Shown one piece after another: positions 7,493-29,088 of a DNA stretch of 29,088 bases; within the stretch, counting starts at the first letter, position 1; every line of letters begins with the position of its first letter. This DNA comes from a virus: positions 1 through 29,088 of the IMG/VR virus record IMGVR_UViG_3300034356_000089; one strand, 5' to 3'. The position numbers and the translations under genes are program-made. A model generated the notes under the pieces. That model searched no databases and was not told the origin of the DNA. It saw only the letters and a program-made list of their open reading frames with translations.

Positions 7493-7502
7493 TTTTTATT
7501 CC

Positions 7503-11631: not shown

Positions 11632-12056
11632 CTCTTGCCAATTAGTTTCTGTAATTCTGCTGTGCTACCAACAAACAATGCATTCGTTATATGCTGTGCT
11701 GGTTGTGTCGTGTCATCTTTTTTAGATTTCAAGTCTTTTACTTTTTTGCCTAAGTCTAACAAATCTTTATTAGTGTCTGACAATGTTTTAATTAGCTGAC
11801 CAACAACTTCATATGCTCTCGGAGACTCACCCTCTTTTGCTAAGAAGATAATGTTTTCCATAGCAACTTTGCCTTGCTCAATGAATAGTTTCAGATTCTC
11901 TCTCGCATATTCATAGTCAGCATCTATAGATTCATCGTTAGGTGCACCAGTAGAAACAGGTTCTTTAACTTGTTCTACTACTGGTAGGACTTGTTCAACA
12001 ATCTTACCTTGCACATCAAATATGTCATTCAACTTATCATCAACTGTTTTCTTCAT
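11628..12056 (-). CDS. 16: gp16-like small terminase subunit
   Basis: A 142-residue, mostly helical charged protein. It has an N-terminal hydrophobic helix (DIFDVQGKIVEQVLPVVEQV), a disordered linker, then the central helical hairpin (DADYEYARENLKLFIEQGK and AYEVVGQLIKTLSDTNKDLL) typical of the gp16 ring-forming coiled coil. A short C-terminal segment ends in TAELQKLIGKR. In T4, gp16 recognises DNA and regulates gp17 cleavage and packaging. It overlaps gp15 as TAATG and gp17 as ATGA, so terminase subunits are probably made by coupled translation. Its position between gp15 and gp17 is the T4 order. Confidence 0.9.
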   Translation of the reverse strand: MKKTVDDKLNDIFDVQGKIVEQVLPVVEQVKEPVSTGAPNDESIDADYEYARENLKLFIEQGKVAMENIIFLAKEGESPRAYEVVGQLIKTLSDTNKDLLDLGKKVKDLKSKKDDTTQPAQHITNALFVGSTAELQKLIGKR

Positions 12057-12811: not shown

Positions 12812-12812
12812 A

Positions 12813-13637: not shown

Positions 13638-13642
13638 TGTAA

Positions 13643-14392
13643 TTAGCCTAGCATATCAGTAACTGGTAAAGAATATGTGCTAATGACTTCTGCTTCTAAT
13701 GCTTGAATTTCGTCTGTAGCTTCATCCCAGATTTTCTGTCCGTTAAATGTGATACCACCTGGCATAGAAAGCCCTTCAAACTTTTTAAGGTTTTCACCCC
13801 ATTGTTTTTTGATTTGTGCAGTACAATACTTTTGCAAGAATCTATCATTGTATACATCCGTGAATGTGTCAGGATCAATCTTTTGATATCCTTCAATGAT
13901 AATGAATTCACCAGCAGTTATTTTTGTGTCCCAAGACATGTCAATGTAAACTCTGTTGATATGGCGATTGAATCTGAGAGATTGTTTACCAACAAACAGT
14001 TCTTCTGCCATTGCAACGTTTTGAAATGCCATGTAGTATGGCGCAAACGGACCCGTATTGAATGAATACAAATCATTCAAAGAAATTTGATATCGCAAGT
14101 TAAAAAGATTGTTTGTAGAATAACTGTCACCAATGTCAAAGATGTTCATAACACCAATGACTGCATCTGGTACTGTGATGTACTTGTTTGTTTTATCTTC
14201 TTCTGTGACTGCGTGTGCGAGATATACTTTTTCTGTTGCGTCATAGTGATAGTCGTAGTAATATTGAAATGCAATCTCAATGCAGTCTTCAACTTGTTCG
14301 TCAGCTACGTTTATCTCTAAGAGAGGTGCACCTAGTCTTCTAAGACAGAATTGTTTAAATTCTTCTCTTGATGCTGGTTTGCTAGTACTCAT
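13643..14392 (-). CDS. 13: gp13-like neck (head completion) protein
   Basis: A 249-residue protein with the family opening SREEFKQFCLRRLGAP, followed by INVADEQVEDCIEIAFQYYY and DYHYDATEKVY. I recognise this as the gp13 neck protein of T4-like phages; T4 gp13 is somewhat longer. In T4, gp13 and gp14 complete the filled head at the portal vertex and form the surface the tail binds. It is the first gene after a terminator and an exact late promoter, and it is followed at once by gp14 and gp15, as in T4. The ATG at 14392 has an AGGGGA ribosome site about 6 nt upstream. No oddities were seen. Identity is secure from sequence and synteny together. Confidence 0.93.
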   Translation of the reverse strand: MSTSKPASREEFKQFCLRRLGAPLLEINVADEQVEDCIEIAFQYYYDYHYDATEKVYLAHAVTEEDKTNKYITVPDAVIGVMNIFDIGDSYSTNNLFNLRYQISLNDLYSFNTGPFAPYYMAFQNVAMAEELFVGKQSLRFNRHINRVYIDMSWDTKITAGEFIIIEGYQKIDPDTFTDVYNDRFLQKYCTAQIKKQWGENLKKFEGLSMPGGITFNGQKIWDEATDEIQALEAEVISTYSLPVTDMLG

Positions 14393-14416
14393 TTTTTCCC
14401 CTTATAAATCATCTTC

Positions 14417-14424
14417 TATTTATA
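14417..14424 (-). promoter_or_regulatory. T4-type late promoter for the gp13-gp17 operon
   Basis: An exact TATAAATA on the minus strand, 24 nt before the gp13 start and downstream of the fibre-operon terminator. In T4 this octamer is the -10 element recognised by the gp55 late sigma factor. The leader also contains an AGGGGA ribosome site. The arrangement terminator, promoter, gene is clean here, making this the most convincing promoter of the window. Confidence 0.8.
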
Positions 14425-14440
14425 ATATCTAGAGAAACAA

Positions 14441-14465
14441 AAAACCCGCTGATGAGGCGGGTTTT
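14441..14465 (-). terminator. Rho-independent terminator after the fibre operon
   Basis: A perfect 9-bp stem, AAAACCCGC paired with GCGGGTTTT, around a 7-nt loop. On the minus strand it is followed by TTGTTT, giving a T-rich tract. It lies 30 nt past the stop of the 169-residue chaperone-like gene and just before the late promoter of gp13. The arms carry A and T runs on both sides, so it could also stop any plus-strand transcript. Confidence 0.88.
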
Positions 14466-14495
14466 GTTTATGTTACTTCTATCAGAGTAGTGACA

Positions 14496-15005
14496 TTAAT
14501 TCCAATTAGCAGATTGCACGGCTGTAATGAATGCTGGCATGTCAGCGGCTGCGGTTACGGCTGCCGTCAAGCGATCACATTCAGCAAAAATTGCCGCACG
14601 TTTAGCCACTACGTCAGTAGGAATAGCCACGTTACGCTCGGCTTTACGAATGACCATCCAGTCAGTCTGAGCCAAGATTGAGTTAGCTGTTTGTTTAAAC
14701 TGAGCAATGTAGTTGGACTTCAGCCCTTTGGTTGTGACGGGTTCTGTTGCGCCTACGGGCGTTTCAGTCACATCTTCCAAAACTTTGGGCGTGTTCACAT
14801 AGTTACGTGTGACGTATGTTTCGCCAACAGAGTAACTAGAAAAAACTACATTGTAGAAGCGTTGATCTTCTTGATTTCCATCAATGATTTCTTTAGCACC
14901 ATTTTGTGATGCGTATGAAGCCGTTGGATTGGGTTCGTTGGGAAACAACTTTTGAAGTTCACCAATTTCTGAGATTTCATTGTTTTGTGTTATGAGTGCG
15001 TACAT
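14496..15005 (-). CDS. Tail-fibre assembly chaperone-like protein, paralog 2
   Basis: A 169-residue protein paralogous to the one at 19510-20082. The N-termini (MYALITQNNEISEIGELQKL against MYALITENNEIAEVGELQAL) and the C-terminal 80 residues (TDWMVIRKAERNVAIPTDV and ITAVQSANWN) match at most positions. The linker after TPKVLED is shorter here. It follows its fibre by 10 nt with an AAGGA ribosome site, and it is the last gene before the strong terminator at 14441-14465, closing the adhesin operon. A chaperone role for the fibre just upstream is inferred from position and the LxxTDWxxxRKxE motif. A minor structural role, such as a fibre cap, is an alternative. Confidence 0.75.
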   Translation of the reverse strand: MYALITQNNEISEIGELQKLFPNEPNPTASYASQNGAKEIIDGNQEDQRFYNVVFSSYSVGETYVTRNYVNTPKVLEDVTETPVGATEPVTTKGLKSNYIAQFKQTANSILAQTDWMVIRKAERNVAIPTDVVAKRAAIFAECDRLTAAVTAAADMPAFITAVQSANWN

Positions 15006-15014
15006 ATTAAGTCC

Positions 15015-18000
15015 TTATCGTGCGAGTGAATATTTAAAGGGGTTAGAAGCAAAGGCCATATAAATGTATACTGCGGTGCCATCGTTATATCCTGCGGCGG
15101 TGTTTCTTAATTTAAAACCATTTGAAACAGCATCAAGCACACCATAACTATTATTTTCAGCATCATTTCCATTGGGCCAAAGTTGACCTGTCATTGCATT
15201 GTAAGTATTTCTTGCAACATCAAGAATAAGCCAGTAGCCTCCTGTAGTTTTTTGAATCAGAATAAATGCTGGTTTAAATCCTGTGTGTACAAACGGCCCA
15301 TCAGTAGTACCATTGCCTGTGTAAGAACCTATTGCAGAATATCCTGCTACGGGTGCAAAGCAGTAAGCAACCATTGTTACACCATTGTCATTGCTACCGC
15401 CATTGATATAAAAAACAGATGATGTAGGTGTTGTTGGGAAAGACCCATCAGTTGCAACTGCATCATTTGTATTTAGTTTTAAACGCTTCCCTGCGCCAGT
15501 TGTAGATGTGTAAACAGACCAATTAGATATTGCGCCTCTAAACTTATGTATCACCATACTAGGCACAACACCAAGCCCATGTCCAATAGACACATCGCTT
15601 CCATTTCCTGTCCAAGTAACAATTGAGAACCCACTTGTAGGATTTGCACTTACTGATGATGTGATAGAGCCTGATGTGTTCGTTACTGGCGTACCGCCTG
15701 CTTTCCATTGCCAACCCACATAATTGTAAGGAAGTTGATTTAAAGAACTAGAACTGGTAGTAAACGTAAATCCATTAGTGGTTCCTGCAATGCCAAAATT
15801 GTAGGTGTCTTCAGCGGCTGTGGAGTTTGTTGCGGAGTACTTTGTGTATCCTCTAACCGAATCAACAAGAAAATGACTTACTGCAACATCACGCCCTTTT
15901 GCCCATATTAAACCACCACCATTAGCTAAGTCAACATTGCTTGTGATAAGTCGAGGATTAACATTGTCACCATTTGCAGCCCATGTAGTGGCATCAAAAA
16001 ACTCACTAGCCAAAGTCGCACTTGTCGCACCAATCGTAGGCGTTGGCAAATTCTGTGTGCAAAGTGCTTTGAAGCCACTTGGGGCTGTGTAGGCAAATGG
16101 GCGTTGACCAAAATTGACTGTGGCAGTTGTACTGATTACGCCTGACAATGGGAAAATAGTTCTGCCGTTTAGTGTGCTTGATGAAAGACTGATGCTTCCC
16201 TGAGACACATTGTCCCTGTAGAAAACGATTGTCCCGCCATCAATATCCAACGCAACACCAATCGTTTGCGTACTAAAAGTAGAGCCGTATCCAGTATCTA
16301 CTGTGTCAATGCGCTTATTGCCTGTATTTCCGTAATACAGAATAGTTCCTGTAGAACTCTGCGGTGCGTCAGTACCTAGTGTGGCGTTATCTCCGCAGAT
16401 ACCAACAAAAGCATCTGAATTGCCGTTGACAATTTCCCAGTACCACTTACCGCTTGTCACGCCAATTGTGCCTACGGCTGAACTCCAACCCGCAGGGGCA
16501 GTAGAAAGAAGATTGCCATTACTTAGTGTCGGTTGAGACACAACTTTAATCAACGGGTTAAACGTAGCATAATTCCCTCGCACTTCACCACCCAAACCAG
16601 TATCTGTGCCATACAATGTTGGTGTATCAACAAGTGAATCATTACCAACGCCTGCACTTACGCTGAAGCCACTAGGTGTGAAGTTGTTGCCGTTACCTGA
16701 AGAGTCTGCACCAAGGGTGCCGGCAGTTGTGTTGGTGTTGTCTGAGAAGTTTAGATTGAAACCATTCGTACCATATGTTCCCACAAAATCAAGTGGTGCC
16801 CATACGCCTGTTGTTGGGTTTGTCCAACCGAATGACGAAGGTGTTAATGCTTGCCCGTCAATAAAGTTAACATCGGTTATGTAGCCTCTAAAATAAGTTG
16901 CGGCTGTGTATCCAATACTTGTAAGACCTGTTGAATTTATGTATGTATCCAAATTTTGTGATGGATAAGTTGAACTCCCATAAGAAACTTCAGAACCATT
17001 TACATACAGTCTTACTCTGTTAGCCGAAATTGTTTGAGTTGTATCTACAGCACAAACAATGTGATACCACGCAGACACATCACGATAAACACTTGCACTT
17101 TGAACGGAAAAAGCAGAACCAGAAACTGGACTGAAAAAACATAACGCATCTGTTGTTAATGCAGTCATATCTGTTCCACCAAAACACAAATACTGTGAGT
17201 ATGGTGAGCCTTGCGTAGAAAATATAGGAACACCTGCCGCAGGTAATGCACTTCTTTTAACCCAACCACTCCATGTAAATGTTTTACTATTTGTAGCACT
17301 CGCAGGAGTACGACTCAAATAAGCAGAATCTGCGCTATTAAACCTCAAAGAACGTGAAATCTGATAATCAGGATTTGCGTACAATGTTGGTGTTGTTGGA
17401 GCCAATGTACCATTAGCATAGAACGTGTGAACGATGTATCCATTAGCGTAGCTTAATGTACCACCAGTGAAGAACTGAGTTGTGCCTGGATAACGAATGA
17501 TGACAATACCGCTACCGCCATTGCCGCCAGCCGTTGGCGTTCCTGTACCACCATTACCGCCGCCACCGCCGCCCGTATTAACAGTTCCACTACCTGATGT
17601 ACCGCCCCTTGCGGCATTACCACCGCCACCAACACCGCCAACCCCCAATGTTCCAGATGTGTATGTGCCAGCACCACCGCCTCCAGCATAGGCAGTAACT
17701 GTTCCCGAAATAGAAGAAGCAATACCACCGCCCCCATTTCCACCAACAGTACTTGTTCCGTTTGATCCAACTGTTCCTGCACCGCCTCCACCACCGCCGC
17801 CATAAGCACTAGACGTATAAGTTCCTGTTCCGCCAGCATTACCTTGACCGTTAATACCAGAACCACCGGGACCAGGATCTAGTGAGCCAGTAGAACTACC
17901 ACCACCACCAGAACCACCAGACAAACCAGTAACCTCAGTCGTTCCAGAAGGCCGCTGATTACCACCCGCACCTCCACCAGTAGATGTAATAGAACCAAAT

Positions 18001-18287
18001 ACAGAGTTGGCGCCAGAAGTTCCTTGGACGGTAGATGACCCTACGCCACCAGCACCAACAGTAACTGTATAAGAAGACCCGGCTGTAATACCCACATGTC
18101 CAGCAAGAAAACCACCTCCACCACCTCCACCACTACCAGTTGAAGTGAGGATGGCGCCGCCACCAGACCCGCCACCAGCAACGACCAAATACTCCACAAC
18201 AGACGGAGGAAAGTTTCCCGTCCAAGTCTGGTTTTTAACCGCTTGACTGACCTGACTCAGCGTCCACATTCCACTATATTGGGGCAT
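15015..18287 (-). CDS. Long multidomain tail fibre, paralog 2 (Gly-rich + LamG + SPRY + C-terminal region)
   Basis: A 1090-residue fibre, the same length as its paralog at 20159-23431. The order is a leader with LSQVSQAVKNQTW, then a glycine-rich domain (about 31-275), then a LamG-like jellyroll (about 315-495, with SLRFNSADSAYL, AWYHIVCAVDTTQ, ITDVNFIDGQALTPSSFG). Next is a segment with LNFSDNTNTTAGTLG, then an SPRY-like domain (about 580-740, GKWYWEIVNG near 615, VNFGQRPFAYTAPSGFKAL at its end). The C-terminal fibre region (about 760-1090) contains LIWAKGRDVAVSH and YNYVGWQWKAGG, and both paralogs end in FKY(S/A)LAR. A TAGGAAT ribosome site precedes the ATG. Receptor-binding fibre is inferred from the domains; the host ligand cannot be deduced. 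Confidence 0.85.
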   Translation of the reverse strand: MPQYSGMWTLSQVSQAVKNQTWTGNFPPSVVEYLVVAGGGSGGGAILTSTGSGGGGGGGFLAGHVGITAGSSYTVTVGAGGVGSSTVQGTSGANSVFGSITSTGGGAGGNQRPSGTTEVTGLSGGSGGGGSSTGSLDPGPGGSGINGQGNAGGTGTYTSSAYGGGGGGGAGTVGSNGTSTVGGNGGGGIASSISGTVTAYAGGGGAGTYTSGTLGVGGVGGGGNAARGGTSGSGTVNTGGGGGGNGGTGTPTAGGNGGSGIVIIRYPGTTQFFTGGTLSYANGYIVHTFYANGTLAPTTPTLYANPDYQISRSLRFNSADSAYLSRTPASATNSKTFTWSGWVKRSALPAAGVPIFSTQGSPYSQYLCFGGTDMTALTTDALCFFSPVSGSAFSVQSASVYRDVSAWYHIVCAVDTTQTISANRVRLYVNGSEVSYGSSTYPSQNLDTYINSTGLTSIGYTAATYFRGYITDVNFIDGQALTPSSFGWTNPTTGVWAPLDFVGTYGTNGFNLNFSDNTNTTAGTLGADSSGNGNNFTPSGFSVSAGVGNDSLVDTPTLYGTDTGLGGEVRGNYATFNPLIKVVSQPTLSNGNLLSTAPAGWSSAVGTIGVTSGKWYWEIVNGNSDAFVGICGDNATLGTDAPQSSTGTILYYGNTGNKRIDTVDTGYGSTFSTQTIGVALDIDGGTIVFYRDNVSQGSISLSSSTLNGRTIFPLSGVISTTATVNFGQRPFAYTAPSGFKALCTQNLPTPTIGATSATLASEFFDATTWAANGDNVNPRLITSNVDLANGGGLIWAKGRDVAVSHFLVDSVRGYTKYSATNSTAAEDTYNFGIAGTTNGFTFTTSSSSLNQLPYNYVGWQWKAGGTPVTNTSGSITSSVSANPTSGFSIVTWTGNGSDVSIGHGLGVVPSMVIHKFRGAISNWSVYTSTTGAGKRLKLNTNDAVATDGSFPTTPTSSVFYINGGSNDNGVTMVAYCFAPVAGYSAIGSYTGNGTTDGPFVHTGFKPAFILIQKTTGGYWLILDVARNTYNAMTGQLWPNGNDAENNSYGVLDAVSNGFKLRNTAAGYNDGTAVYIYMAFASNPFKYSLAR

Positions 18288-18298
18288 AATTATTCCTA

Positions 18299-18649
18299 TT
18301 ATACAGTTGGTGCTACAAATTCAATCCAAGATGTTGTGGGTTCGTCCCAACGATAAATCTTGTTATCTGTCGGCATAGGTGTTGGCGCTTCCCACAAATA
18401 TGTATTTTCGTTCTTAGTCCAAGAAGCAAAGGGCTGTGGCCCATAAAAGCCTACGCCGTCATACAACATTCCAATGCCTGCGTAGTTCTTACGCAATGGG
18501 CGCCCTTCAGGATGCTGACCGCCATGGGTGTTGTATGAAGTTTGAACCCACAATGATGGATCACCCCAATGTCCAAGGTTCAATGTTTCTTGATCTATCA
18601 CGATGACTGAAGTCACTACACCGTTTTCTACTTTAGCAAAATGTGCCAT
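18299..18649 (-). CDS. Small conserved phage protein within the fibre cassette, function unknown
   Basis: A 116-residue protein opening MAHFAKVENGVVTSVIVID, with a central WVQTSYNTHGGQHPEG motif and YAGIGMLYDGVGFYGPQP later. It is rich in aromatic residues and has no signal peptide or membrane segment. I recognise this type as a small protein common near tail-fibre genes of aquatic T4-like phages, but its function is not known. A GGAGAT ribosome site precedes the ATG at 18649. It lies between the glycine-rich protein and the second 1090-residue fibre and has no counterpart in the first cassette, so it is either an insertion there or a loss from the other copy. It could be a fibre accessory or capping protein; this is a guess. 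Confidence 0.7.
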   Translation of the reverse strand: MAHFAKVENGVVTSVIVIDQETLNLGHWGDPSLWVQTSYNTHGGQHPEGRPLRKNYAGIGMLYDGVGFYGPQPFASWTKNENTYLWEAPTPMPTDNKIYRWDEPTTSWIEFVAPTV

Positions 18650-18662
18650 ATTTTATCTCCGT

Positions 18663-19505
18663 TTAAAAAGTAATTGTTCCACTACTTGTGAATGTATATA
18701 TCTGATATCCATCAGCATAGTTTATCTGAGGGCTTCCTGTTGTAGAAGCTGGTGCTGAAAAATATGCAGGGTAACGAATGATTACGATGCCGGAGCCGCC
18801 AGCAGTAGCCTTATAAGGTGATGACCCACCACCTCCACCACTACCAGAATTTGCTAAAGCAGAAGTACCCGGAACTGTGTTATACGCCGCACCAGTACCA
18901 CCGCCAGAATTTCCTAAACCACCAACTGGAAAACTTGCACCTCCTCCACCGCCAGCGTAAAAAACTCTTTGGCCTGTAATGGTTGAACAAGTACCCGCTC
19001 CAGCAATTCCAGCTATAATTGATGTTGAATTTCCACCAGCAGAACCAGAGCCACCTCCGCCACCGCCACCTGTGTTTCCAGAACCGGGATATATTGCATT
19101 GCCACCAGCAAAGCCTTGACCCGATGTACCAGCACCGCCAGAAACAGTTCCTGAAGTACTATCACCTGCGCCACCACCAGAGCCACCAGAAACGCCAGCA
19201 TAACCCCTATCACTACCATAGCCACCGCCAATTGTTTCAATGCTAGAAAAAACAGAACTAGTGCCTCTTGCTTCACCAGCGCCACCAGCGCCAATAGTAA
19301 TTGTGTTATTTGCACCAGCGGTAACAGCAAAACCTGTTGCAGTTAAAAGGCCGCCAGCACCACCTCCACCGCCTTGTGCGCCACTTGGCGTAATATTTCC
19401 TCCGCCACCACCACCAGCGACAACTAGATATTCAACAGTTGTTGGTTTACCGCCTGCTAGTGGATCAAAGTTTGCGGATATGAACCCGCCCAAGTTAGCT
19501 GACAT
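18663..19505 (-). CDS. Free-standing glycine-rich fibre/adhesin protein, cassette 2
   Basis: A 280-residue glycine-rich protein starting MSANLGGFISANFDPLAGG. I chose the ATG at 19505 over the longer in-frame ATG at 19532. It sits 4 nt past the stop of the previous gene with a GGAAC ribosome site about 8 nt upstream, whereas the longer start would be buried 23 nt inside the previous gene. The domain runs from VEYLVVAGGGGGG to SGIVIIRYP, and the tail ends YTFTSSGTITF, nearly the same as the ending of the 23438-24322 protein. It is one of four glycine-rich domains in the window and is probably a fibre tip or adhesin. Glycine codons raise the local G+C relative to neighbouring genes. Confidence 0.8.
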   Translation of the reverse strand: MSANLGGFISANFDPLAGGKPTTVEYLVVAGGGGGGNITPSGAQGGGGGAGGLLTATGFAVTAGANNTITIGAGGAGEARGTSSVFSSIETIGGGYGSDRGYAGVSGGSGGGAGDSTSGTVSGGAGTSGQGFAGGNAIYPGSGNTGGGGGGGSGSAGGNSTSIIAGIAGAGTCSTITGQRVFYAGGGGGASFPVGGLGNSGGGTGAAYNTVPGTSALANSGSGGGGGSSPYKATAGGSGIVIIRYPAYFSAPASTTGSPQINYADGYQIYTFTSSGTITF

Positions 19506-19509
19506 TATT

Positions 19510-20082
19510 TTAGTTCCAGTTAGCAGATGCAACTGCTGTGATAAAAGCTGTCATATCTGAGGCTGCGGTTACGGCTGCAATTAATCTATCGCATTCTGTG
19601 AGAATAGCCGCACGTTTAGTTGCTACATCAGTCGGAATTGCTACATTGCGTTCTACTTTGCGAATCACCATCCAATCAGTCTCGGAAAGCAATGAATTAG
19701 CTGTCTGCTTAAACTGAGTCTTGTATTGTGATTTCAATCCCTTAGTGACCATTTGTTCAGTTGAATCTACCATTGCGCCATGTTCACCAACAGTAGCATC
19801 CCAGACTTTAACATACATGGGTGTGTTATCTTCATTGACTTCTAATCTGTCTTCTAAAATCTTAGGTGTATTGACATATGTTCGTGTGACAGAATCTGCA
19901 CCCACTTCATATTTATCAAATGTAACGAAATAGAATTGTTGATTTTCTTGATGCCCGTCAACAATTGGTCTAGCGCCACGCTGAATAGCATAGAGATGAC
20001 TAGGGCGAGGTTCATTCGGAAACAAAGCCTGTAGTTCACCAACTTCAGCGATTTCATTGTTTTCTGTTATTAATGCGTACAT
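19510..20082 (-). CDS. Tail-fibre assembly chaperone-like protein, paralog 1
   Basis: A 190-residue soluble protein. The N-terminal half (MYALITENNEIAEVGELQAL to TYVNTPKILED) is a compact domain. Residues about 80-110 are a linker. The C-terminal 80 residues carry KQTANSLLSETDWMVIRK, then ERNVAIPTDV and ECDRLIAAV. The LxxTDWxxxRKxE segment is like that of phage tail-assembly chaperones that assist fibre folding and are encoded right after the fibre. Its place immediately downstream of a 1090-residue fibre fits that role, but the assignment is inference. A TAGGAA ribosome site precedes the start, and a possible variant late promoter (TCTAAATA) lies at 20111-20118. Compared with its paralog at 14496-15005 it has roughly 20 extra residues in the linker; the two ends are highly similar. 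Confidence 0.75.
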   Translation of the reverse strand: MYALITENNEIAEVGELQALFPNEPRPSHLYAIQRGARPIVDGHQENQQFYFVTFDKYEVGADSVTRTYVNTPKILEDRLEVNEDNTPMYVKVWDATVGEHGAMVDSTEQMVTKGLKSQYKTQFKQTANSLLSETDWMVIRKVERNVAIPTDVATKRAAILTECDRLIAAVTAASDMTAFITAVASANWN

Positions 20083-20110
20083 AGTTTTTTCCTATTATCT
20101 AACGATTGAA

Positions 20111-20118
20111 TATTTAGA
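20111..20118 (-). promoter_or_regulatory. Possible variant late promoter before the first chaperone-like gene
   Basis: TCTAAATA on the minus strand in the 76-nt gap between the first 1090-residue fibre and the 190-residue gene. It contains CTAAATA, a late-promoter core described for T4-like cyanophages. The rest of this gap shows no hairpin or other feature. Confidence 0.35.
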
Positions 20119-20158
20119 CGGGATGTTTAATTGATGCGTGGTTTACGAATTCTTTTTA

Positions 20159-23100
20159 TCACCGAGCCAAAGCGTATTTGAATGGATGGGAAGCAAAAGC
20201 CATGTAAAGAAAGCTATCTCCATTACCAGAATTAAAATAAGTACCGTCTCGTAATTTAAATCCGTTGCTTAGTATATCCATTCCGTTTCCTGCGGAATAT
20301 TCAACGGTTATGGCGTTTGCATCAAGTTCTAGAACGGCTGCGTTGTATGGACTTCTTATTGCGTCAATCATTGTCCAAGGCGCTCCAGATGCGTCAAAGC
20401 GTTTTAGCATAATAAAAGCAGGTCTAAATCCCGTGTATAAAAATGGTCCATCAGCATTCGCATTGGCTGTGTAAGAGCCAAATTTGCTATACCCTGCTAC
20501 TTCAGCAAAACAGTATGCGACATAAGTAGTGGCTGAAGTATTAACGGCGGCCGCCGAAGAAATTGAGAATACAGTTGATGTGGGCGATGTGTCACTCCAC
20601 AAAGCAACTACTGAGCCTTGTGCATCGGTTGTGTTCAAAGCAATATATTTTGTATTGCCTAAAGCAACATGATAACTATTCCAATTATAACTTGAACCGC
20701 TTCTCTCTTTAACAACATAAAAACTAGGCGCAACACCCAATCCATGGCCGACAGTAGCGGCCGACCCTGTACCCGTATACGTCACAATACTAAAACCACT
20801 TGTGCGATTTGCACTTACGTTTGAGATGGAACTGCCATCTTTGTTGGTTGACCCTGCGTTGTTGCCAGCCCTCCACTGCCATGCAACATAAGTTTCACCA
20901 GTTAGATTCATATTGTCAGTAGTGTTTAAAGTAAATCCATTACTGTTGATAGAACTAAGACATGAGCCTGTGTCTTCAGCAATTGCTAAATCTGTATATA
21001 AAACTTTGTTAATTCCACGAACACTATCCATCAATCTATGGCTTCTATTAACACTTCTATCTTTTATCCAAATCCAATCGGGTTGAAATGCACCTGAATT
21101 TACAATTGCTTGTGTTGCTGATGTACCAGTATAAAGATTTATACCAAAGAACTTACTAGCCAAAGTCTCACTTGAACCACCGATTGCAGGTGTAGGTAAG
21201 TTCTGTGTGTTTAGTGCTTTGAAGCCTGTTGGTGCCGTATATGCGAATGGGCGTTGACCGAAGTTATGTGTGCAACTGTCTGTGGTATCAAAACCGCTTG
21301 TAGCTGGATTTAATGTGTAGCCTGACAAATTAGTATATGCGGCATTTGTTCCCGCTACTGGGTCACCACTTGCAAACCAAGTGCCGTTTTTACCCCACCA
21401 AATTTTACCTGAATCCATATCCATGGCAACAATCATTACGTCATTTTGAGCAAACGCAGAACCATAAGCAGTTCCTGATCCTGTGTTATTTCTCTTTTGC
21501 CCGTTTGACGCATAAACACCCCAAGAATTATTGTATGCACCAACATAAGCACTGCTTGGATTGGTGGTTACGTTGTATGTATTGTCATCAACGCCATGCA
21601 TTACAGTTTGTGTTGTGCCTGTGATTGTTACTTCCCAATACCATTTTCCACTTGCTACAGCAATAGATGCCCGTGCAGAATTCCAACCACCAGAAGCAGT
21701 TACTTGGTCTAAGTTGCCATTTGACAGCGTTACTGTTGAACCTTTATTGATGGGGTTCATTGTCGAGTAATTCCCTCGCACAGTACCACCCACACCAGTA
21801 TCAAAACCGTATGGTGTTGGAGTATCTACCATGCTGTCATTACCGGCACCCGCAGTCACGCTGAAGTTATTAGGTGTAAAGTTGTTGCCGTTACCTGAGT
21901 AGTCTTTACCCAATGTAGCCGCTGTTGTGTTCGTATTGTCTGAGAAGTTGATGTAGAAGCCGTTAGTGCCGTATGTACCTGTATATTTAATAGGTGCCCA
22001 CACACCTGTGGTTGTGCTTGTAGCGCCAAACGATGATGGGGTTAGGGCTTGACCGTCAATGAAGTTCACCTCTGTCATATACGCACTTAAAAAAGACCCT
22101 GTGCCTATGCTACCCAAATTGGCACTGTAACCGCTAGTGTTTAATCTTGTAAATGTGTAATTTTGAGTTGGGTATGTTGCGGTTGTAAATGCCGTTACCT
22201 GCACCCCATTTATATACATCAAGATTCTGTTTGCCGCAGTTGCTTGCGTAGTGTCAATTGCAATAACAATGTGATACCAAGCAGACGAGTCACGAAATAC
22301 TTGCGTAGTAACCAAGTCTGCACTACTTGCGCCATTAAGGAAAAATCTTAAGGTGTCCCCTGTATTGTTCCATGTAAGAGTATCTGTATTTGATGTTCCA
22401 GCACTAAATAGTGTTGAATATGCGCCAATTGTTAAAGCACTGCGCTTTACCCACCCTGACCAAGTTGCTTTCTGTGTATCACCTGTTGTTTGGGCGCGGT
22501 CAAGATAAGCAGAGTCAGCACTATTAAACCGTAATGACCTGCTAATCTGATATGAAGTGTTATAAGCCGTTGGCGTTGTTGGAGCCAATGTGCCGTTTGA
22601 GTTGAAGATGTGACTAATGTATCCGTTGTTGTAGTTAACTGTACCGCCAGTGTAGAACACAATGTTCCCTGGATAACGAACGATTACAATACCCGAACCG
22701 CCTGCGGCTCCAGTATAACCTGCCGCTCCACCGCCCCCACCACCACCTGTATTGACAGCACCTGCGGTTGCCGTATTGTAGCCACCAGTTCCTCCTCCAC
22801 CTACACCACCAAGACCTGGCAAAACTGGGCCACCATCAGCATAACCAGAACCACCGCCTCCACCAGCATAGAGTGTTAAAGTTCCACTAATGTCGCTTGC
22901 AATACCAGCACCGCCTCTGCCGCCTCTAAGTTTGAATCCATTTTGTCCAGCAGTACCCGCTCCGCCTCCGCCACCACCACCAACATAGTTACTAGTACCT
23001 GCGCCAATATAAGCGTAATTACCACCAGCATTACCTTGACCAGAAACGCCTTGACCGCCTAAATTAGGAGTTGCACTTCCAAGTTGCCCAGAGCCACCGC

Positions 23101-23431
23101 CAGAGCCGCCATTGCCGCCCGGAGTTGCGCCAGCACCGCCACCTGTTGCAGAAATAACACCAAAAGCTGAACTAACGCCTTGATTTCCAACATTGGCTGT
23201 TGAAGAAGCGGCGCCACCAGCGCCAACTGTAACGCTATAAGAAGTCCCAATAGTAACGGGAACCATACCTGTTAGTAAACCACCTGCACCTCCACCGCCA
23301 ACATAGTGACCAGTACCACCACCGCCAGCAACAACAAGATACTCTACAAATTGAGGTGGATTAAATGCTGACCATGCGCCTTGACGAATGGCTTGGTTAA
23401 CTTGTTTGAGATTAAAAATACCTTGTGCCAT
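20159..23431 (-). CDS. Long multidomain tail fibre, paralog 1 (Gly-rich + LamG + SPRY + C-terminal region)
   Basis: A 1090-residue fibre. After a leader with LKQVNQAIRQGAW, residues about 28-250 form the glycine-rich domain (VEYLVVAGGGG to SGIVIVRYPG). Residues about 295-480 form a LamG/concanavalin-like jellyroll, with SLRFNSADSAYL, AWYHIVIAIDTTQ and MTEVNFIDGQALTPSSFG. Residues about 560-740 look SPRY-like, with GKWYWEVTI at about 595 and FGQRPFAYTAPTGFKAL closing it. From about 760 to the end there is a fibre C-terminal region of the kind labelled DUF7483 (family name uncertain), with WIWIKDRSVNRSH and YVAWQWRAG. LamG and SPRY domains suggest glycan or protein receptor binding. A clear AAGGAT ribosome site precedes the ATG at 23431. 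It is paralogous over its whole length to 15015-18287, which has the same residue count. Confidence 0.85.
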   Translation of the reverse strand: MAQGIFNLKQVNQAIRQGAWSAFNPPQFVEYLVVAGGGGTGHYVGGGGAGGLLTGMVPVTIGTSYSVTVGAGGAASSTANVGNQGVSSAFGVISATGGGAGATPGGNGGSGGGSGQLGSATPNLGGQGVSGQGNAGGNYAYIGAGTSNYVGGGGGGGAGTAGQNGFKLRGGRGGAGIASDISGTLTLYAGGGGGSGYADGGPVLPGLGGVGGGGTGGYNTATAGAVNTGGGGGGGAAGYTGAAGGSGIVIVRYPGNIVFYTGGTVNYNNGYISHIFNSNGTLAPTTPTAYNTSYQISRSLRFNSADSAYLDRAQTTGDTQKATWSGWVKRSALTIGAYSTLFSAGTSNTDTLTWNNTGDTLRFFLNGASSADLVTTQVFRDSSAWYHIVIAIDTTQATAANRILMYINGVQVTAFTTATYPTQNYTFTRLNTSGYSANLGSIGTGSFLSAYMTEVNFIDGQALTPSSFGATSTTTGVWAPIKYTGTYGTNGFYINFSDNTNTTAATLGKDYSGNGNNFTPNNFSVTAGAGNDSMVDTPTPYGFDTGVGGTVRGNYSTMNPINKGSTVTLSNGNLDQVTASGGWNSARASIAVASGKWYWEVTITGTTQTVMHGVDDNTYNVTTNPSSAYVGAYNNSWGVYASNGQKRNNTGSGTAYGSAFAQNDVMIVAMDMDSGKIWWGKNGTWFASGDPVAGTNAAYTNLSGYTLNPATSGFDTTDSCTHNFGQRPFAYTAPTGFKALNTQNLPTPAIGGSSETLASKFFGINLYTGTSATQAIVNSGAFQPDWIWIKDRSVNRSHRLMDSVRGINKVLYTDLAIAEDTGSCLSSINSNGFTLNTTDNMNLTGETYVAWQWRAGNNAGSTNKDGSSISNVSANRTSGFSIVTYTGTGSAATVGHGLGVAPSFYVVKERSGSSYNWNSYHVALGNTKYIALNTTDAQGSVVALWSDTSPTSTVFSISSAAAVNTSATTYVAYCFAEVAGYSKFGSYTANANADGPFLYTGFRPAFIMLKRFDASGAPWTMIDAIRSPYNAAVLELDANAITVEYSAGNGMDILSNGFKLRDGTYFNSGNGDSFLYMAFASHPFKYALAR

Positions 23432-23437
23432 ATATCC

Positions 23438-24322
23438 TTAGAATGTAATTGTGCCAGATGCAACAAATGTGTATACACGCCAGCCGCCAGTAACGATCAT
23501 TTCAGGCGAACCTGTTGTTGATTTAGCAGGCGCTAAGTAAGATGGGTAACGAATGATAACAATGCCTGAGCCGCCTGCACCTGATTCTGATGGACCGTTT
23601 GTGCCACCACCTCCACCACCGCCTGTGTTATAGAGACCATTGCCGCCCGCATAAGGTCCAGGAGAGTAATAGATACCACCAGTTCCACCACCACCCGCAC
23701 CACCTGAGGGAATATTTGATGAAACTGTGCCGCCACCTCCACCGCCACCGTAAAAAACTCGTGAGCCAGAAATTGAAGAAACGAATCCTGTTCCACCAAA
23801 ACTAGGATCGATACTATTGTCGGCACTGCCACTACCAGTACCGCCTATTGAGCCAGCACCTCCGCCTCCACCAGCAGAGTTAACGTTTGAAATATTGGAG
23901 TATACTCCACCAGCATTGCCCTGACCAAAAATTCCAGAACCCGTAGGAGTATTTGATGTTGTAGCACCACCGCCCGACCCGCCATTATTGCCGTATCCGT
24001 AAGATGAACCACCACCACCGCCGCCACCAACTGATGTTATAGAGCCAAATATAGAATTACTTCCGTTATCACCAGCGTAAGTAGATGCACCACCTGCACC
24101 ACCTGCACCCACAGTCACAGTAATGCTAGAGCCGCTATTGACAAGATATCCAGTAGCAGTTAATACACCACCTGCACCACCACCACCGCCAACACCAGAA
24201 ATATAATTCTGTCTACCGCCTCCACCACCGCCAGCAACAACTAGATATTCTACCTCTTTAACAGGAGAGTTGATGCCGTCAAGTCCGGTTGAAACAATAC
24301 CACCTACATATCGTTTAGACAT
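23438..24322 (-). CDS. Free-standing glycine-rich fibre/adhesin protein, cassette 1
   Basis: A 294-residue protein that is almost entirely one glycine-rich domain. After a short leader (MSKRYVGGIVSTGLDGI) the domain opens with VEYLVVAGGGGGG, continues through many runs of 4-7 glycines and closes with SGIVIIRYP near residue 256, followed by a short tail ending in FVASGTITF. This is the glycine-rich phage fibre domain (PF21722 type, assigned from memory). Related glycine-rich tips, such as the gp38 adhesin of Salmonella phage S16, fold as polyglycine-II sandwiches and bind host receptors; extending that here is inference. The ribosome site is weak. It closely resembles the 280-residue protein at 18663-19505 and precedes a 1090-residue fibre carrying the same domain. 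Confidence 0.8.
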   Translation of the reverse strand: MSKRYVGGIVSTGLDGINSPVKEVEYLVVAGGGGGGRQNYISGVGGGGGAGGVLTATGYLVNSGSSITVTVGAGGAGGASTYAGDNGSNSIFGSITSVGGGGGGGSSYGYGNNGGSGGGATTSNTPTGSGIFGQGNAGGVYSNISNVNSAGGGGGAGSIGGTGSGSADNSIDPSFGGTGFVSSISGSRVFYGGGGGGGTVSSNIPSGGAGGGGTGGIYYSPGPYAGGNGLYNTGGGGGGGTNGPSESGAGGSGIVIIRYPSYLAPAKSTTGSPEMIVTGGWRVYTFVASGTITF

Positions 24323-24331
24323 ATTAGATTA

Positions 24332-24706
24332 TTATGAAAGTTCTTCGTATGAAACTACATAAGCAATTTTTGATGCTGTGCTAGTTGTAACGACAACAGA
24401 ATTATTTTCTTCAAGATAAAACGCTGTTGACTTGTCAGACACAATCAAAGATGCATCAGCAGGAATAGAAATAGTTGATGCTAATGGGAATGATGTACCA
24501 GCACCATTTGCGGCAGTATTAAATGCTACAGTTGAATCAAAAGCAGTATTACCATCTACATTAGCCGCAATGATCGTATTGATCTTGAAGACTTTTCCCG
24601 ATGATGAGGGATTCGCAAGCAATACATTTGGTGCTGTATTTGCTGGTGTAAGATATGATGTTTTTGCTGTAATTGTTGCAACGTTTACGATATTGGGCGC
24701 AGCCAT
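24332..24706 (-). CDS. Small beta-rich virion protein, function unknown
   Basis: A 124-residue Ala/Thr/Ser-rich protein beginning MAAPNIVNVATITAKT, with alternating hydrophobic residues typical of beta structure and a central FKINTIIAANVDG motif. It has no signal peptide or transmembrane segment. The ATG at 24706 is preceded by a good AAAGGAA ribosome site about 8 nt upstream, which supports this start. Similar small proteins accompany fibre genes in aquatic T4-like phages; that statement is from general familiarity and is not a specific homolog call. Its place between a repeat fibre and the first glycine-rich adhesin suggests a virion or host-contact role, but none can be assigned. Confidence 0.65.
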   Translation of the reverse strand: MAAPNIVNVATITAKTSYLTPANTAPNVLLANPSSSGKVFKINTIIAANVDGNTAFDSTVAFNTAANGAGTSFPLASTISIPADASLIVSDKSTAFYLEENNSVVVTTSTASKIAYVVSYEELS

Positions 24707-24724
24707 AAGAAGTTCCTTTAAAAA

Positions 24725-25876
24725 TTAACCACCAAAGACTAACGCCATTGCGATAGCTTTACCTGTTGTTACACCACCGCCACTACTTGGTGTTTGCCAT
24801 GTTGCGGTTGTTGATCCTGTAGCAGTAAGAACCTGCCCGTTTGATGGTGTAGATGAACCCGCAACAGAAATAGCGCCTGTTGCATATGTTAATTTATCTA
24901 CACCGCCTGTTGTTGTAATCTTATTGTTTGCTTGAAGACTATCAACTATAAGGTTTGCATAAGCAAAACCATTGCCAGAAACGTCAATTGTAGTTGATGG
25001 TTCAACGTTGTAGTCTTTAAATAATTTCCAAGTGCCATCAGAAGCATCTCTGAAGAATCCTGAATGGACATTACCTGCACCATCACTATACTGTCCGAAG
25101 AAACCAACGTCAACTGTGTTTGCAACATTGTTATTAGCAATCTGCAACATGTTGTCTTCAATGTTAATTTGTGTCGTACTGATAGCAGAATTAGAACCGA
25201 GAATTGTTATGTTACCCGTAACTTGCATGTCGCCACCGACATACAAGTTCTTAGCGATACCAGCACCACCATCAACGATCAATGCACCTGTAGTAACACC
25301 TGTTGATTGTGTAGTATCAGTAACATCAATTATGCCACCAACGAATAAGTTCTTAGCAATACCAGCACCACCATCAACGATCAAAGCGCCTGTGGTATTA
25401 CTTGTTGATTGTGTAGTATTGGCAACATCAACTATACCACCAACGTATACGTTTTTAGCAACACCAGCACCGCCGGAAATAATTACTGCACCTGTAGTGC
25501 TTGAGGATGAATCTGTTGTTCCAGAAAGTGTCGTGTTTGCTGTAACATTTAAGTCTGTGCCTACATATAATTTCTTAGCGACACCAACACCACCAGTAAC
25601 AATCAAAGTTCCTGTAGTAGTTGAAGATGCGTCTGTAGCACCACCTAAAGTTAAAACATCAGTAGATGTATTGTATGTTAAATTTGAATCATCAACAATC
25701 AATCCAGAAGTTGACACTAATGGAACACGTCCAGAGGTCAAAGTCGCCACAGTAACTGTATTTGCAGAAATTGCACCCGTACCGGCAGTAAAAGAATTTA
25801 CTGTATTAGCCGCATCATTAAACGTGCTTCTAAATTCATTAAACGTGTTCGATAACGCTACTTGTGATATTGGCAT
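24725..25876 (-). CDS. Repeat-containing phage fibre/structural protein
   Basis: A 383-residue protein made mostly of beta-type repeats. Residues about 80-215 contain four imperfect units built on GALIVDGGAGIAKNLYVGG; three are spaced exactly 34 residues (102 nt) and one 40 residues. After this come an NITILGSN segment and a region with QINIEDNMLQIANN and FFGQYSDGAGNV, which resembles tail-fibre shaft or tip segments of aquatic T4-like phages. The C-terminus ends in GKAIAMALVFGG, an ending I associate with fibre-like phage structural proteins. The start overlaps the preceding stop as TAATG, with an AGAGAGAG-type purine leader just upstream. A possible late promoter (25986-25993) lies within the preceding gene. 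The exact position in the virion is not known; fibre is inferred from composition and neighbours. Confidence 0.75.
   Translation of the reverse strand: MPISQVALSNTFNEFRSTFNDAANTVNSFTAGTGAISANTVTVATLTSGRVPLVSTSGLIVDDSNLTYNTSTDVLTLGGATDASSTTTGTLIVTGGVGVAKKLYVGTDLNVTANTTLSGTTDSSSSTTGAVIISGGAGVAKNVYVGGIVDVANTTQSTSNTTGALIVDGGAGIAKNLFVGGIIDVTDTTQSTGVTTGALIVDGGAGIAKNLYVGGDMQVTGNITILGSNSAISTTQINIEDNMLQIANNNVANTVDVGFFGQYSDGAGNVHSGFFRDASDGTWKLFKDYNVEPSTTIDVSGNGFAYANLIVDSLQANNKITTTGGVDKLTYATGAISVAGSSTPSNGQVLTATGSTTATWQTPSSGGGVTTGKAIAMALVFGG
25248..25600 (-). repeat. Tandem 102-nt coding repeats in the fibre gene
   Basis: Three successive copies of a block (shared core TTCTTAGC then ACCAGCACC on the plus strand) begin at 25248, 25350 and 25452, exactly 102 nt apart, and a fourth begins 120 nt further at 25572. 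They encode 34-residue units with GALIVDGGAGIAKNLYVGG. The phase is conserved, so copy number could change without a frameshift. Confidence 0.85.
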
Positions 25877-26127
25877 TATTCTTCTCTCTCTTTAGTTATT
25901 TTTAACAACAATTGTTTGATTTCGCTGAGGTCTGATTTAATACTGTCCACTTCGTCACGAATTAAAGCAATCTCATTTCTACTCTTATTTATATCAGAAA
26001 TTTTTCGTTTTTGGATTTTATATTTTAACAATGAATCCATGTCTGTATTTAGTATGGCTTTAGAGTTTATATCTCTTTCGGTAAACCCACGAACAGGTTC
26101 TGCGATTTTAATCTTTTCTGCTATCAT
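25876..26127 (-). CDS. Small coiled-coil virion-cluster protein, function unknown
   Basis: An 83-residue charged protein. The C-terminal half (about residues 45-83, from RNEIALIRDEVDSIKSDL onward) has hydrophobic residues spaced as in a heptad coiled coil and is rich in Lys, Glu and Ile. The start ATG at 26127 overlaps the stop of the large upstream virion gene as ATGA, and its own stop overlaps the next start as TAATG, so translation is probably coupled through all three genes. No signal peptide or membrane segment is visible. I do not recognise a family. A small coiled-coil linker or trimerisation partner for the fibre encoded next is a reasonable guess from the context only. Confidence 0.65.
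   Translation of the reverse strand: MIAEKIKIAEPVRGFTERDINSKAILNTDMDSLLKYKIQKRKISDINKSRNEIALIRDEVDSIKSDLSEIKQLLLKITKEREE
25986..25993 (-). promoter_or_regulatory. Possible internal late promoter for the repeat fibre gene
   Basis: An exact minus-strand TATAAATA inside the 83-residue gene, 110 nt before the start of the 383-residue fibre gene. It may add transcription of the fibre and downstream genes. The A+T-rich coding context makes chance occurrence possible. Confidence 0.35.
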
Positions 26128-29088
26128 GCTAATGCTATGCCTCTCAAATCTTTGACCTTTGATGCAAAACTTGGATTGCTAGATAAGAAAACAATCTTAA
26201 TTGCAAACTGTTTGTATCCTTGGAATGTTCTTCCATCAGGTGTTGTATATGCAACTGTGTTATTTAGAACACGGAAAACGTCTTGGCTAGAAGCAAGTGT
26301 AGAGAACACAGATTCAACTGTCAATGATACGTTATTTGCAATGGTAGAAACTACACGTTCTGTTCTAGCAGTACCGACAGCAATTGTGTCACCAATCTTC
26401 AAGTCTTCTGTGAAGCGAGTAGATGTGCCAGTAACTGTTGTTGATACGTTAGAAATTGCAACTGTACCAGTAAGCAATTCAGAACCACCAGTTTTTGCTA
26501 CAGACGGAACAACATACTTTTCTTCTTTGTACTCATTCTGATTGAGTGTGAACGTTTCTGTTCCAACCAATTCCATAGGAGTATAGAATTTATCGTCAAA
26601 TGCGTCTGAGTCATTCTCATTCAATAATTTAGCATAGACTTTAATTGAAGTTCCTGGCGGACGATTGATTCTCAAATAGGTAACTAAATCAGCCGCTTCA
26701 AATCCATCGTTCAACGTCACAACTTTAGTGATGTATCTAGACTCAGAAGAATATGGTCCAGTTGGATTTTCTTCATTGCGAATAGACATTGCTTGATTGA
26801 CTGCGTTTGATGTAGTAAAATTGTTTATAACAGTCAAAACTGTGTTACTTGTTACTGAAGAAACTCTGCGGTATTCGTCACCAAAGTATGCATATTCACC
26901 AGGGAATACTTGTGTCGTAAAAGTTGTACCAGTACCAACAACAATATTATTGCCAGAACTATATGCAACTGTTCCGCTTACTTCTGTGCTATCTAAATTG
27001 TTGATAACATTTTTATCAAAGTGAAATCTAATACTTTCATTGTCAATGTATGGAGTAATAAACTTATTAGCTGTAGACAATGTTGCTCTTACTTGCAAAG
27101 ATTTAAATCCACTTGCCGTTTCTGAAGCCGTAGTAGAAATTTGTTTTCTAGAACGCAATACTAATCTTTCATAGTTTTTAACTGTAGTGAAATCAGTATC
27201 AACTGTAAACGTACTGTCAGCAGTCTTGATATCATATGTGATATTTGTCTCAGGAAGAATTTGATCGCTAATAGCTGGAGTCAATGCATCATAAGTAAAT
27301 GCAGTTGTTTGTGGAATATTAGCCCAAAATTCAACTTTTTCTGAAGTACTAAACTCTGCAACTCTCATTGTGAATTTCATATCAATATTTTGTTTTGCTG
27401 TCCATGTTGTGTCGGTAGAAGATGTGAATAACAATCCGCTATTATATGCTTGTTCAATTCTAGTCTGTCTGTCTGGATTAGTAATGTCAATTGCACCCAA
27501 TTCAGCAACCCAAATTGCATAATCTGGATCATTATTGTCTGGCTTAACAGCAAAACAATATTCATTACCAGGACTCAAATAGATAGGATTTTTAAATGTG
27601 AATTTAGTTGCGGTTGATGCATTTTCACTTATATTAATATTTACATTGTTGACAACTGCACTATCACTAGCACTAACAAATTGTAAAGATGGAAATCCAT
27701 TTTCCATTTCACGAACTTCAACTCTAACATTTCTAGCGTCTTCTTGTGATTTTGTTCTGAAAAACAGATCAATAGAAGTTAAATAGAATCCTTTTGAATA
27801 TGTATCTGGATCAACAAAGAAACTTTGCGACAATGGATCAGTATTTCTTGGTGGCGGTTGTGGAATTGGCACACTCGCAGTTTCAACTCGCTGTTGAGAA
27901 ATAACTTTTCTGCCCAATGATCTAATATTATCTGCGCCAACGAACGTAACGTTAAATGGGCGAGAGTTAATTGTGAATGAACCAGTCTTTTGTAAAATGC
28001 CTTGTGAGAAAATTGTGTTTCTTGCACTAGTTAATGTTGTTCCCTCAGAATTTGTGGGGCTATCTGTGATTTTAAATTCACGTGGACCAGTATAAAATTT
28101 ACCAGCTGGAACTTCAAACAATAATATAATTTGATTGTTTTTAACAATGAGTGGCTGTGTAGCACCATTAGCAATAGCTTCCCAAGTGCTTCCACTATTG
28201 CCAGTCAATTCACCCTTGCTGTTCATCAAATCGTTTAATGATTGTACAGTAGTACTACCGAACAATGAAATTTGAAAACAATTCGCAGTAACGTTTACGC
28301 CATCAAAGAATGCATAAACTCTAGAATTATTTTTCAATCCTGTAGCTTGAATAACAAAGTCACGAGGACGCATTCTAAGTGCGGCTTCAACTTGAACAAC
28401 TCTATCAAACTTAACATCTTGTGAAGACGATGTTGTTTGATTGCCTGCGGCTAATTGATTATATGCTTCTTGAGTCGTCTGTTGTAATGCAGTAGTGACA
28501 TTAAATTGACCAACTTGTGTTGTTTGATTTGTTCCAGCAACAATACCAGTTTGTGTCGTGCCACCAAGCCATTTTTGATTTAATGGTGCAACTTCTGTAT
28601 TCCATGCACTCACTAATGCTTTCCAGTTATCAGCACCTTGGTCATCATTGTAAACGACATTTTTTGTAGGATCATTTTCTGTCTCAAAGAAATTATCTGT
28701 AAATGGCACAGCAATTAAATCACCAGTCCAAATGAAGTTTAATTCTTCAGCAAGTCTTAATTGTCTAGATGCTTTATCTTGTTTTAATCCCTTTGCTTCA
28801 ACTTCAGTATATGGCAACATAATTTTGTTGCCAGAATTTATGGTTGTTGTTGAAGCAGTTGTTCCTGTAGTAGAATAACGAAGTCCGACTGTGTTTGCAT
28901 TGTCCTGTAAACATGTCAATAATTTATTCTTTTTGTCAATTGCACAATCTTTACCATCTTCAGATGTAGATGCTACAGACCAACCTGTAAATGGATCAAC
29001 AAGAATACCATTTTTGAATCTGTCTAATCCATCATTGTCCAATTCTGTCGTATCAGTCGCTTGCTTCTCTAAGAAACTCAATGCAGTA
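26124..29088 (-). CDS. Large T4-like virion structural protein (DUF4815-like), 5'-truncated by the window edge
   Basis: At least 985 residues of a large virion protein. The first possible start in view is a TTG at 29081, but the frame stays open to the last base with Thr and Ala codons before it and no ribosome site is visible, so the gene almost certainly begins outside the window. The visible N-terminus, with FLEKQATDTTELDNDGLDRF followed by an ILVDPFTGWS stretch, resembles the large DUF4815-type structural proteins of T4-like cyanophages and related aquatic myoviruses; this is recognition from memory. A middle segment with DPLSQSFFVDP and FYLTSIDLFFRTKS is also typical of that group. The C-terminal third holds two copies of a small beta module (about 26779-26985 and 26266-26478). 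It overlaps the next gene by ATGA. A baseplate or fibre-attachment role is inferred, not shown. Confidence 0.8.
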   Translation of the reverse strand, partial: TALSFLEKQATDTTELDNDGLDRFKNGILVDPFTGWSVASTSEDGKDCAIDKKNKLLTCLQDNANTVGLRYSTTGTTASTTTINSGNKIMLPYTEVEAKGLKQDKASRQLRLAEELNFIWTGDLIAVPFTDNFFETENDPTKNVVYNDDQGADNWKALVSAWNTEVAPLNQKWLGGTTQTGIVAGTNQTTQVGQFNVTTALQQTTQEAYNQLAAGNQTTSSSQDVKFDRVVQVEAALRMRPRDFVIQATGLKNNSRVYAFFDGVNVTANCFQISLFGSTTVQSLNDLMNSKGELTGNSGSTWEAIANGATQPLIVKNNQIILLFEVPAGKFYTGPREFKITDSPTNSEGTTLTSARNTIFSQGILQKTGSFTINSRPFNVTFVGADNIRSLGRKVISQQRVETASVPIPQPPPRNTDPLSQSFFVDPDTYSKGFYLTSIDLFFRTKSQEDARNVRVEVREMENGFPSLQFVSASDSAVVNNVNINISENASTATKFTFKNPIYLSPGNEYCFAVKPDNNDPDYAIWVAELGAIDITNPDRQTRIEQAYNSGLLFTSSTDTTWTAKQNIDMKFTMRVAEFSTSEKVEFWANIPQTTAFTYDALTPAISDQILPETNITYDIKTADSTFTVDTDFTTVKNYERLVLRSRKQISTTASETASGFKSLQVRATLSTANKFITPYIDNESIRFHFDKNVINNLDSTEVSGTVAYSSGNNIVVGTGTTFTTQVFPGEYAYFGDEYRRVSSVTSNTVLTVINNFTTSNAVNQAMSIRNEENPTGPYSSESRYITKVVTLNDGFEAADLVTYLRINRPPGTSIKVYAKLLNENDSDAFDDKFYTPMELVGTETFTLNQNEYKEEKYVVPSVAKTGGSELLTGTVAISNVSTTVTGTSTRFTEDLKIGDTIAVGTARTERVVSTIANNVSLTVESVFSTLASSQDVFRVLNNTVAYTTPDGRTFQGYKQFAIKIVFLSSNPSFASKVKDLRGIALA

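Follow-up and report, generated by a model that had tools for sequence, protein, structure and literature searches.

A replaceable late operon of a T4-like phage probably encodes a two-slot receptor-binding array with mosaic fibre tips

The virus record IMGVR_UViG_3300034356_000089 contains a 29,088-base fragment of a T4-like phage (the whole of it is called the window here), in which glycine-rich, fibre, and chaperone-like genes occur twice in tandem. The original prediction took this arrangement for an old duplication of a whole adhesin cassette, each fibre being served by its own matched chaperone. We consider it likely that the region is instead a replaceable late operon encoding a two-slot receptor-binding array, in which the slots carry plug-in tips and the lectin-like domains of the tips are reassorted at conserved linkers. 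The duplicated-cassette view thereby gives way to a testable device whose two slots are fixed and whose tips, like the domains inside them, are exchangeable. Every gene originally described lies on the minus strand at the position given for it, and the array is composed as follows (relatives, given as L numbers, are related viral contigs or phages).

24332..24706, minus strand: small protein of 124 amino acids (s24332), which opens the array in nearly all relatives and stands before Gly-a in most arrays with a visible left end
23438..24322, minus strand: Gly-a, a free-standing Gly_rich_2 protein (Pfam PF21722), companion of slot 1 and class a in the stem tree
20159..23431, minus strand: slot-1 fibre of 1090 amino acids (Pfam, AlphaFold, stem class f1)
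19510..20082, minus strand: slot-1 chaperone-like protein of 190 amino acids, with a beta N-terminal half and a helical C-terminal half (PHROG 4912, AlphaFold, BFVD)
18663..19505, minus strand: Gly-b, a free-standing Gly_rich_2 protein (Pfam), companion of slot 2 and positional class b
18299..18649, minus strand: small protein of 116 amino acids (PHROG 7759), which separates Gly-b from fibre 2 across the arrays
15015..18287, minus strand: slot-2 fibre of 1090 amino acids, with the domain order of slot 1 (Pfam, pairwise alignment, stem class f2)
14496..15005, minus strand: slot-2 chaperone-like protein of 169 amino acids, sister of the L002 chaperone (95% identical) and not of the slot-1 copy

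Pfam matches follow the order Gly_rich_2, SPRY, and DUF7483 in both fibres. The slot-1 fibre consists of a leader (residues 1-23), a Gly stem (24-255), a LamG-like part (293-526), SPRY (552-725), and DUF7483 (741-1090), and its AlphaFold model (mean predicted local distance difference test score, pLDDT, 82.6) has low-confidence linkers at residues 256-292, 527-551, and 726-740 and a mostly well ordered Gly stem, the sequence of which had no match in the PDB. The LamG part had no Pfam match in the fibres and was assigned from the AlphaFold strands together with structural matches to PAPP-A over residues 296-574. The SPRY part has the SPRY/B30.2 fold both by Pfam (PF00622) and by a structural match to the SPRY domain of RanBP10 (Z 25.6, root-mean-square deviation 2.8 over 178 residues).

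The two fibres are 49% identical over residues 261-1090, that is, outside the Gly stem (E=0), and both contain SLRFNSADSAYL and FGQRPFAYTAP, while the chaperone-like proteins are 64% identical to each other (E=6e-86) and Gly-a and Gly-b 45% identical, partly as an effect of composition. The longest exact DNA runs common to both sets are at most 20 nucleotides (nt). The original description of two tandem sets with similar fibres, similar chaperones, and broken DNA identity was correct in its coordinates and similarities, but it overlooked the gene at 18299-18649, which belongs to the downstream set and has no upstream counterpart. The equal length of the fibres is incidental, because relatives with the same fibre domains range from 1046 to 1136 amino acids and the two window fibres align with 51 gaps. 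Gly-b most likely starts at the ATG at 19505 rather than at the TTG at 19532. Purifying selection seems to act on both sets, as had been proposed, the ratio of nonsynonymous to synonymous divergence (dN/dS) between copies being 0.18-0.38 per domain, which is only indicative because dS (1.1-2.3) is near saturation. The 116-amino-acid protein belongs to a family that is widespread among aquatic phage contigs (555 related places in viral contigs) and also occurs in cultured phages, namely Melnitz (three places) and Roseobacter and Pelagibacter phages.

Some 40 further contigs have the same series of genes, namely s24332, Gly-a, fibre 1, (chaperone), Gly-b, small gene, fibre 2, (chaperone). Among these contigs are L159, L160, and L161, in whose flanks no backbone gene in common with this phage could be detected; L159 matches an HK97-type major head family. 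The N-termini of the stems are position-specific, FNLKQVNQAI, for example, marking slot 1 and WTLSQVSQAV slot 2, and a tree of 50 stems separated the four positional classes (a, b, f1, and f2) with three changes, the minimum possible. The two companion types are paired in this tree, and so are the two fibre types, which is what a single old duplication of a two-gene unit would produce. A duplication of the Gly-rich pair (Gly-a with the fibre-1 stem, Gly-b with the fibre-2 stem), which predates the divergence of phages with unrelated backbones, is supported by the stem sequences, and this much of the proposed cassette duplication stands; the tips and the chaperones are not sisters.

A simple tandem duplication of the whole cassette within this lineage, followed by divergence, would agree with the same gene order, the homologous genes, the purifying selection, and the saturated silent sites, as well as with the old pair of stems, but we regard it as improbable. 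Sisterhood of the two window chaperones was rejected (approximately unbiased test, p-AU 1e-9); the upstream copy (chapU) has its nearest relative in the slot-2 chaperone of L126 (89%), and the downstream copy (chapD) is 80-83% identical to slot-1 chaperones whose phages have other backbones. Each SPRY domain is nearest to that of another phage, and the extra small gene is present in one set only. Likewise, 42 other fibre tips score nearer to the upstream tip than the downstream tip does, and 25 show the reverse, so that the closer kinship with other phages that the original prediction had named as evidence against itself was largely what we found. Sisterhood of the tips was rejected in a 12-row tree (p 6e-7). 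Whole-gene phylogeny was nevertheless dropped as the deciding test, being unstable, with trees that disagree and fibres that are mosaic; since every domain has a separate history, whole-gene trees of such fibres are misleading.

Tip states combine freely among the 41 arrays with both slots visible, in which none/none, short/short, DUF7483/none, other/DUF7483, and DUF7483/DUF7483 were observed. The last state was found in 3 of the 41 arrays (the window, L119, and L273), although L119 and L273 look like one phage. The slots are evident from these arrays, and each fibre slot is, judging from the gene sequences, either tipless or furnished with one of several tips. It has to be considered that the two fibres form one heteromeric fibre, the stem paralogues co-assembling, rather than two separate adhesins, since the arrays retain four paralogous Gly-rich stems in a constant order, as would be expected for parts of one device. 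We find this unlikely, because the tips of the two slots vary independently (none/none and tip/none included), a pattern more in keeping with separate plug-ins; a virion with two adhesins can reasonably be inferred. Another arrangement was seen in L012, L017, L033, L169, and L177, in which an s24332 homolog is followed by a tandem pair of LamG/SPRY/DUF7483 fibres that lack Gly stems and have a single chaperone.

Within the two-slot array, the tips themselves are, by their nucleotide identities, assembled from individual domains that have been traded with other phages. Four blocks in the window make the mosaic structure plain.

21197..21766, minus strand: slot-1 SPRY block (residues ~556-745), shared with the slot-2 fibre of L126 at 93% nt identity, against 43-51% in the other variable segments
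16038..16577, minus strand: slot-2 SPRY block (residues ~571-750), shared with L160, a contig with a backbone unrelated to this phage, at 97% nt identity (dN 0.003, dS 0.10), against 41-53% in the other variable segments
15633..16082, minus strand: first part of the slot-2 DUF7483 (residues ~736-885), shared with L126 and L002 at 90-92% nt identity in residues 770-850 (dS 0.29)
15363..15542, minus strand: middle part of the slot-2 DUF7483 (residues ~916-975), shared with L008 at 88% nt identity

In fibre-1 numbering, both SPRY blocks run from ~538-541 to 748-756, and the ends of the window blocks coincide with the linkers of low model confidence. When 107 fibres (5671 pairs) were compared over five variable segments, 20 pairs shared exactly one segment at ≥80% nt identity with another at <62%, and none shared all five. 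The same kind of criterion gave 0 pairs for gp13, gp14, gp17, and gp20 of the relatives. The sheath gene gp18 (window 8062-9951) differs from these control genes in that 10 of 406 pairs of relatives had one segment at ≥80% nt identity and another at <62%. A first block search was replaced by this table of variable segments because conserved linkers had been counted as exchanges. Silent-site identity is higher in conserved than in variable stretches (rho 0.46, p 4e-4, 54 bins), which fits repeated exchange through the conserved stretches, with the caveat that conserved sequence also hampers the placement of breakpoints.

Tips far more variable than their flanks could also result from local hypermutation, e.g., by a diversity-generating retroelement, or from diversifying point mutation, but blocks of 88-97% nt identity alternate with blocks of 41-60% within one gene, dN/dS is 0.03-0.24 in the shared blocks, and no reverse transcriptase was noticed by eye among the predicted proteins of the window (no profile search was made). 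We give this explanation hardly any credence. Scarcely more credible is a metagenome assembly chimera joining the domains of different strains at conserved linkers, which is suggested by the metagenomic origin of the sequences and by the contigs L001 and L158 breaking inside fibres. L001 (99.60%) confirms 11166-17468 and L158 (99.95%) confirms 21687-29088. L001 differs by 25 mismatches, indicating an independent sequence and not the same contig, and it contains the slot-2 mosaic including both SPRY junctions; moreover, the shared SPRY blocks are 93-97% and not 100% identical.

The same pattern was found in complete genomes of cultured pelagiphages with Pelagibacter HTCC1062 as the recorded host. 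Between Greip and HTVC011P, SPRY is 92% identical and the remaining variable segments are 52-61% identical; between HTVC031P and Skadi-6, LamG is 97% identical and the remaining segments 52-60%. Because single-domain swaps occur in complete genomes of cultured phages, assembly chimerism is not a general explanation for single-domain exchange, and these pairs are natural experiments for the role of one domain. Two genes, divided at the SPRY/DUF7483 border, encode the fibre in these pelagiphages. Its DUF7483 part is labelled "SprT-like protease" in L369 (Greip gp2), and the fibre-adjacent chaperone-like proteins of the Roseobacter phages CRP-406 and CRP-811 (entries including L384) are labelled "N-acetylmuramidase/lysin"; both are likely misannotations.

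The slot-1 chaperone-like protein has a beta N-domain, with strands up to residue 110, and a helical C-domain, with helices at 116-185, in the AlphaFold model (pLDDT 97.4). Of 80 relatives, 61 match PHROG 4912 ("tail fiber assembly") and 11 weakly match PF16778, the window copies having no Pfam match above the cut-off, and in BFVD the matches (E 1.5e-4 at best) bear the name "Phage tail assembly chaperone". No convincing match to solved structures in the PDB was obtained by sequence, Foldseek, or VIA, the VIA matches being discounted as helical hairpins with Z <8. The chaperone gene directly follows 10 of 14 DUF7483 tips and 0 of 85 other fibres (p 6e-11), and fibre-chaperone pairs numbered 92. 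Chaperone divergence tracked the linkers (rho 0.45-0.47) and the fibre C-terminus (0.40) and SPRY least (0.16), although the linkers are favoured in this comparison by being less saturated. Two fibres occur with one chaperone in L012, L017, L033, and L119. The weak relation to SPRY and the two-fibre/one-chaperone cases point to a general folding factor, not one matched to each specificity, so that the predicted pairing of each fibre with its own chaperone is weakened. From its association, the protein looks like a general folding factor for the DUF7483 tip.

The T4-like nature of the phage is apparent from T4-type terL, portal, sheath, tube, and neck genes in order from gp13 to gp21; the backbone genes were named by recognition and synteny, terL alone being matched to annotated records. 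TerL matches 2670 phage records, the best being Melnitz and cyanophages at ~50%. The array, from s24332 to the slot-2 chaperone gene, occupies the space between two conserved flanks.

26124..29088, minus strand: large structural protein, which runs off the window and has 2047 amino acids in L158
25986..25993, minus strand: TATAAATA, T4-late-promoter-like, upstream of the array
14441..14465, minus strand: predicted intrinsic terminator closing the array operon (9-10 pairs and then a T run; top terminator-like site of the scan)
14417..14424, minus strand: TATAAATA, T4-late-promoter-like, before the neck gene
13643..14392, minus strand: neck protein (gp13-like), 75-100% identical in 80 relatives, most of them with different content upstream

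Most relatives with a 96-98% identical neck protein have other genes at the array site, and DNA identity to array-less relatives stops abruptly at 14426-14471, which falls on the terminator. Together, the late promoter motifs, the terminator, and the end of identity mark the limits of an operon, and the array region is, as predicted from these signals, a replaceable late operon.

In the mechanism that we propose, four paralogous Gly-rich proteins would form two slots, one from Gly-a and a Gly-stemmed fibre and the other from Gly-b, the small protein, and a Gly-stemmed fibre. The position-specific N-terminus of each stem, judging from the leaders, presumably docks the protein at a separate position on the baseplate or tail. 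The end of the fibre in each slot would be a plug-in tip, here LamG/SPRY/DUF7483 in both slots, each followed by a tail-fibre-assembly-type chaperone that may help DUF7483 tips in general to fold. The variable faces of LamG, SPRY, and DUF7483 probably bind surface glycans or proteins, as their folds suggest, and are the predicted determinants of host choice in common aquatic phages. Exchange with other phages would proceed by single domains, probably through homologous recombination in the conserved linkers when phages co-infect a host, resulting in a virion with two adhesins whose specificities change independently. We advance more tentatively, as somewhat less probable than not, the generalization that the four-stem Gly-rich array is a plug-in device of different tailed phages, with linkers as recombination anchors and two independent adhesins re-specified domain by domain from the pool of phages of the same host.

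Several points weigh against this proposal. No independent contig spanning 17469-21686 was found. Sisterhood of the tips was not rejected in a 28-row tree (p 0.42), an unsurprising outcome because the fibre genes are mosaic. Four of the 14 DUF7483 tips in arrays have no chaperone beside them, so that the chaperone may act in trans or not be needed at all. Vertical descent, with replacement of the remainder, could account for the DUF7483 block in common with L002, and the shared blocks give neither the direction nor the donor of each swap. Finally, we infer both the presence of the two fibres on the virion and the docking by leaders.

Modular, recombining adhesins are already known. The T-even gp37/gp38 adhesin locus has variable recognition segments between conserved motifs that act as recombination points, which resembles the variable segments described here, also on a T4-like backbone; in our array, however, no gp38 homology was found, folded lectin-like domains are what varies, and the Gly-rich part serves as the stem. 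Recent mosaicism of tail fibres, sometimes across phage families, was reported for phage receptor-binding proteins (Smug et al., 2023; PMC10684548), and recent domain mosaicism is common to that survey and our fibres, but its text makes no mention of SPRY or lectin domains, while the unit here is one domain in a LamG/SPRY/DUF7483 tip of a two-slot array. In the Alteromonas phages A5, V22, and P24, a fibre and a DUF4376-type chaperone are common to phages of different morphology (PMC10579305); there whole fibre and chaperone genes are shared, whereas here single domains are, and the chaperone follows the scaffold and not the variable domains. The myocyanophage Pam3 gp24/gp25 pair comprises a Gly-rich fibre and a chaperone with a beta N-domain and a helical C-domain (PMC9608196), as in the window, but our chaperone model has no sequence or Foldseek match to solved structures.

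The Methylophilales phage Melnitz is also T4-like (terL 51%), contains the 116-amino-acid family, and has the same site, the corresponding stretch lying between a 2127-codon gene and the neck genes; part of this region differs among four isolates (PMC9004378). Unlike in the window, no Gly-rich array with DUF7483 tips was seen in the Melnitz annotation, and the tblastn matches of the fibre did not list Melnitz. In the literature consulted, neither a two-slot Gly-rich array nor the exchange of single domains in this tip family appears to have been described; a literature search for a pelagiphage SPRY tail fibre found no paper, which is weak evidence of novelty.

Elsewhere in the window, the gene adjoining the portal gene (3642-5189) encodes a protein with a long collagen-like Gly-X-Y stretch and has a G+C content of 0.47, against ~0.37 around it. 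Two neighbouring tail-tube-like (gp19) genes, of 188 and 176 amino acids, lie at 6926-8033, and the pair is retained in relatives.

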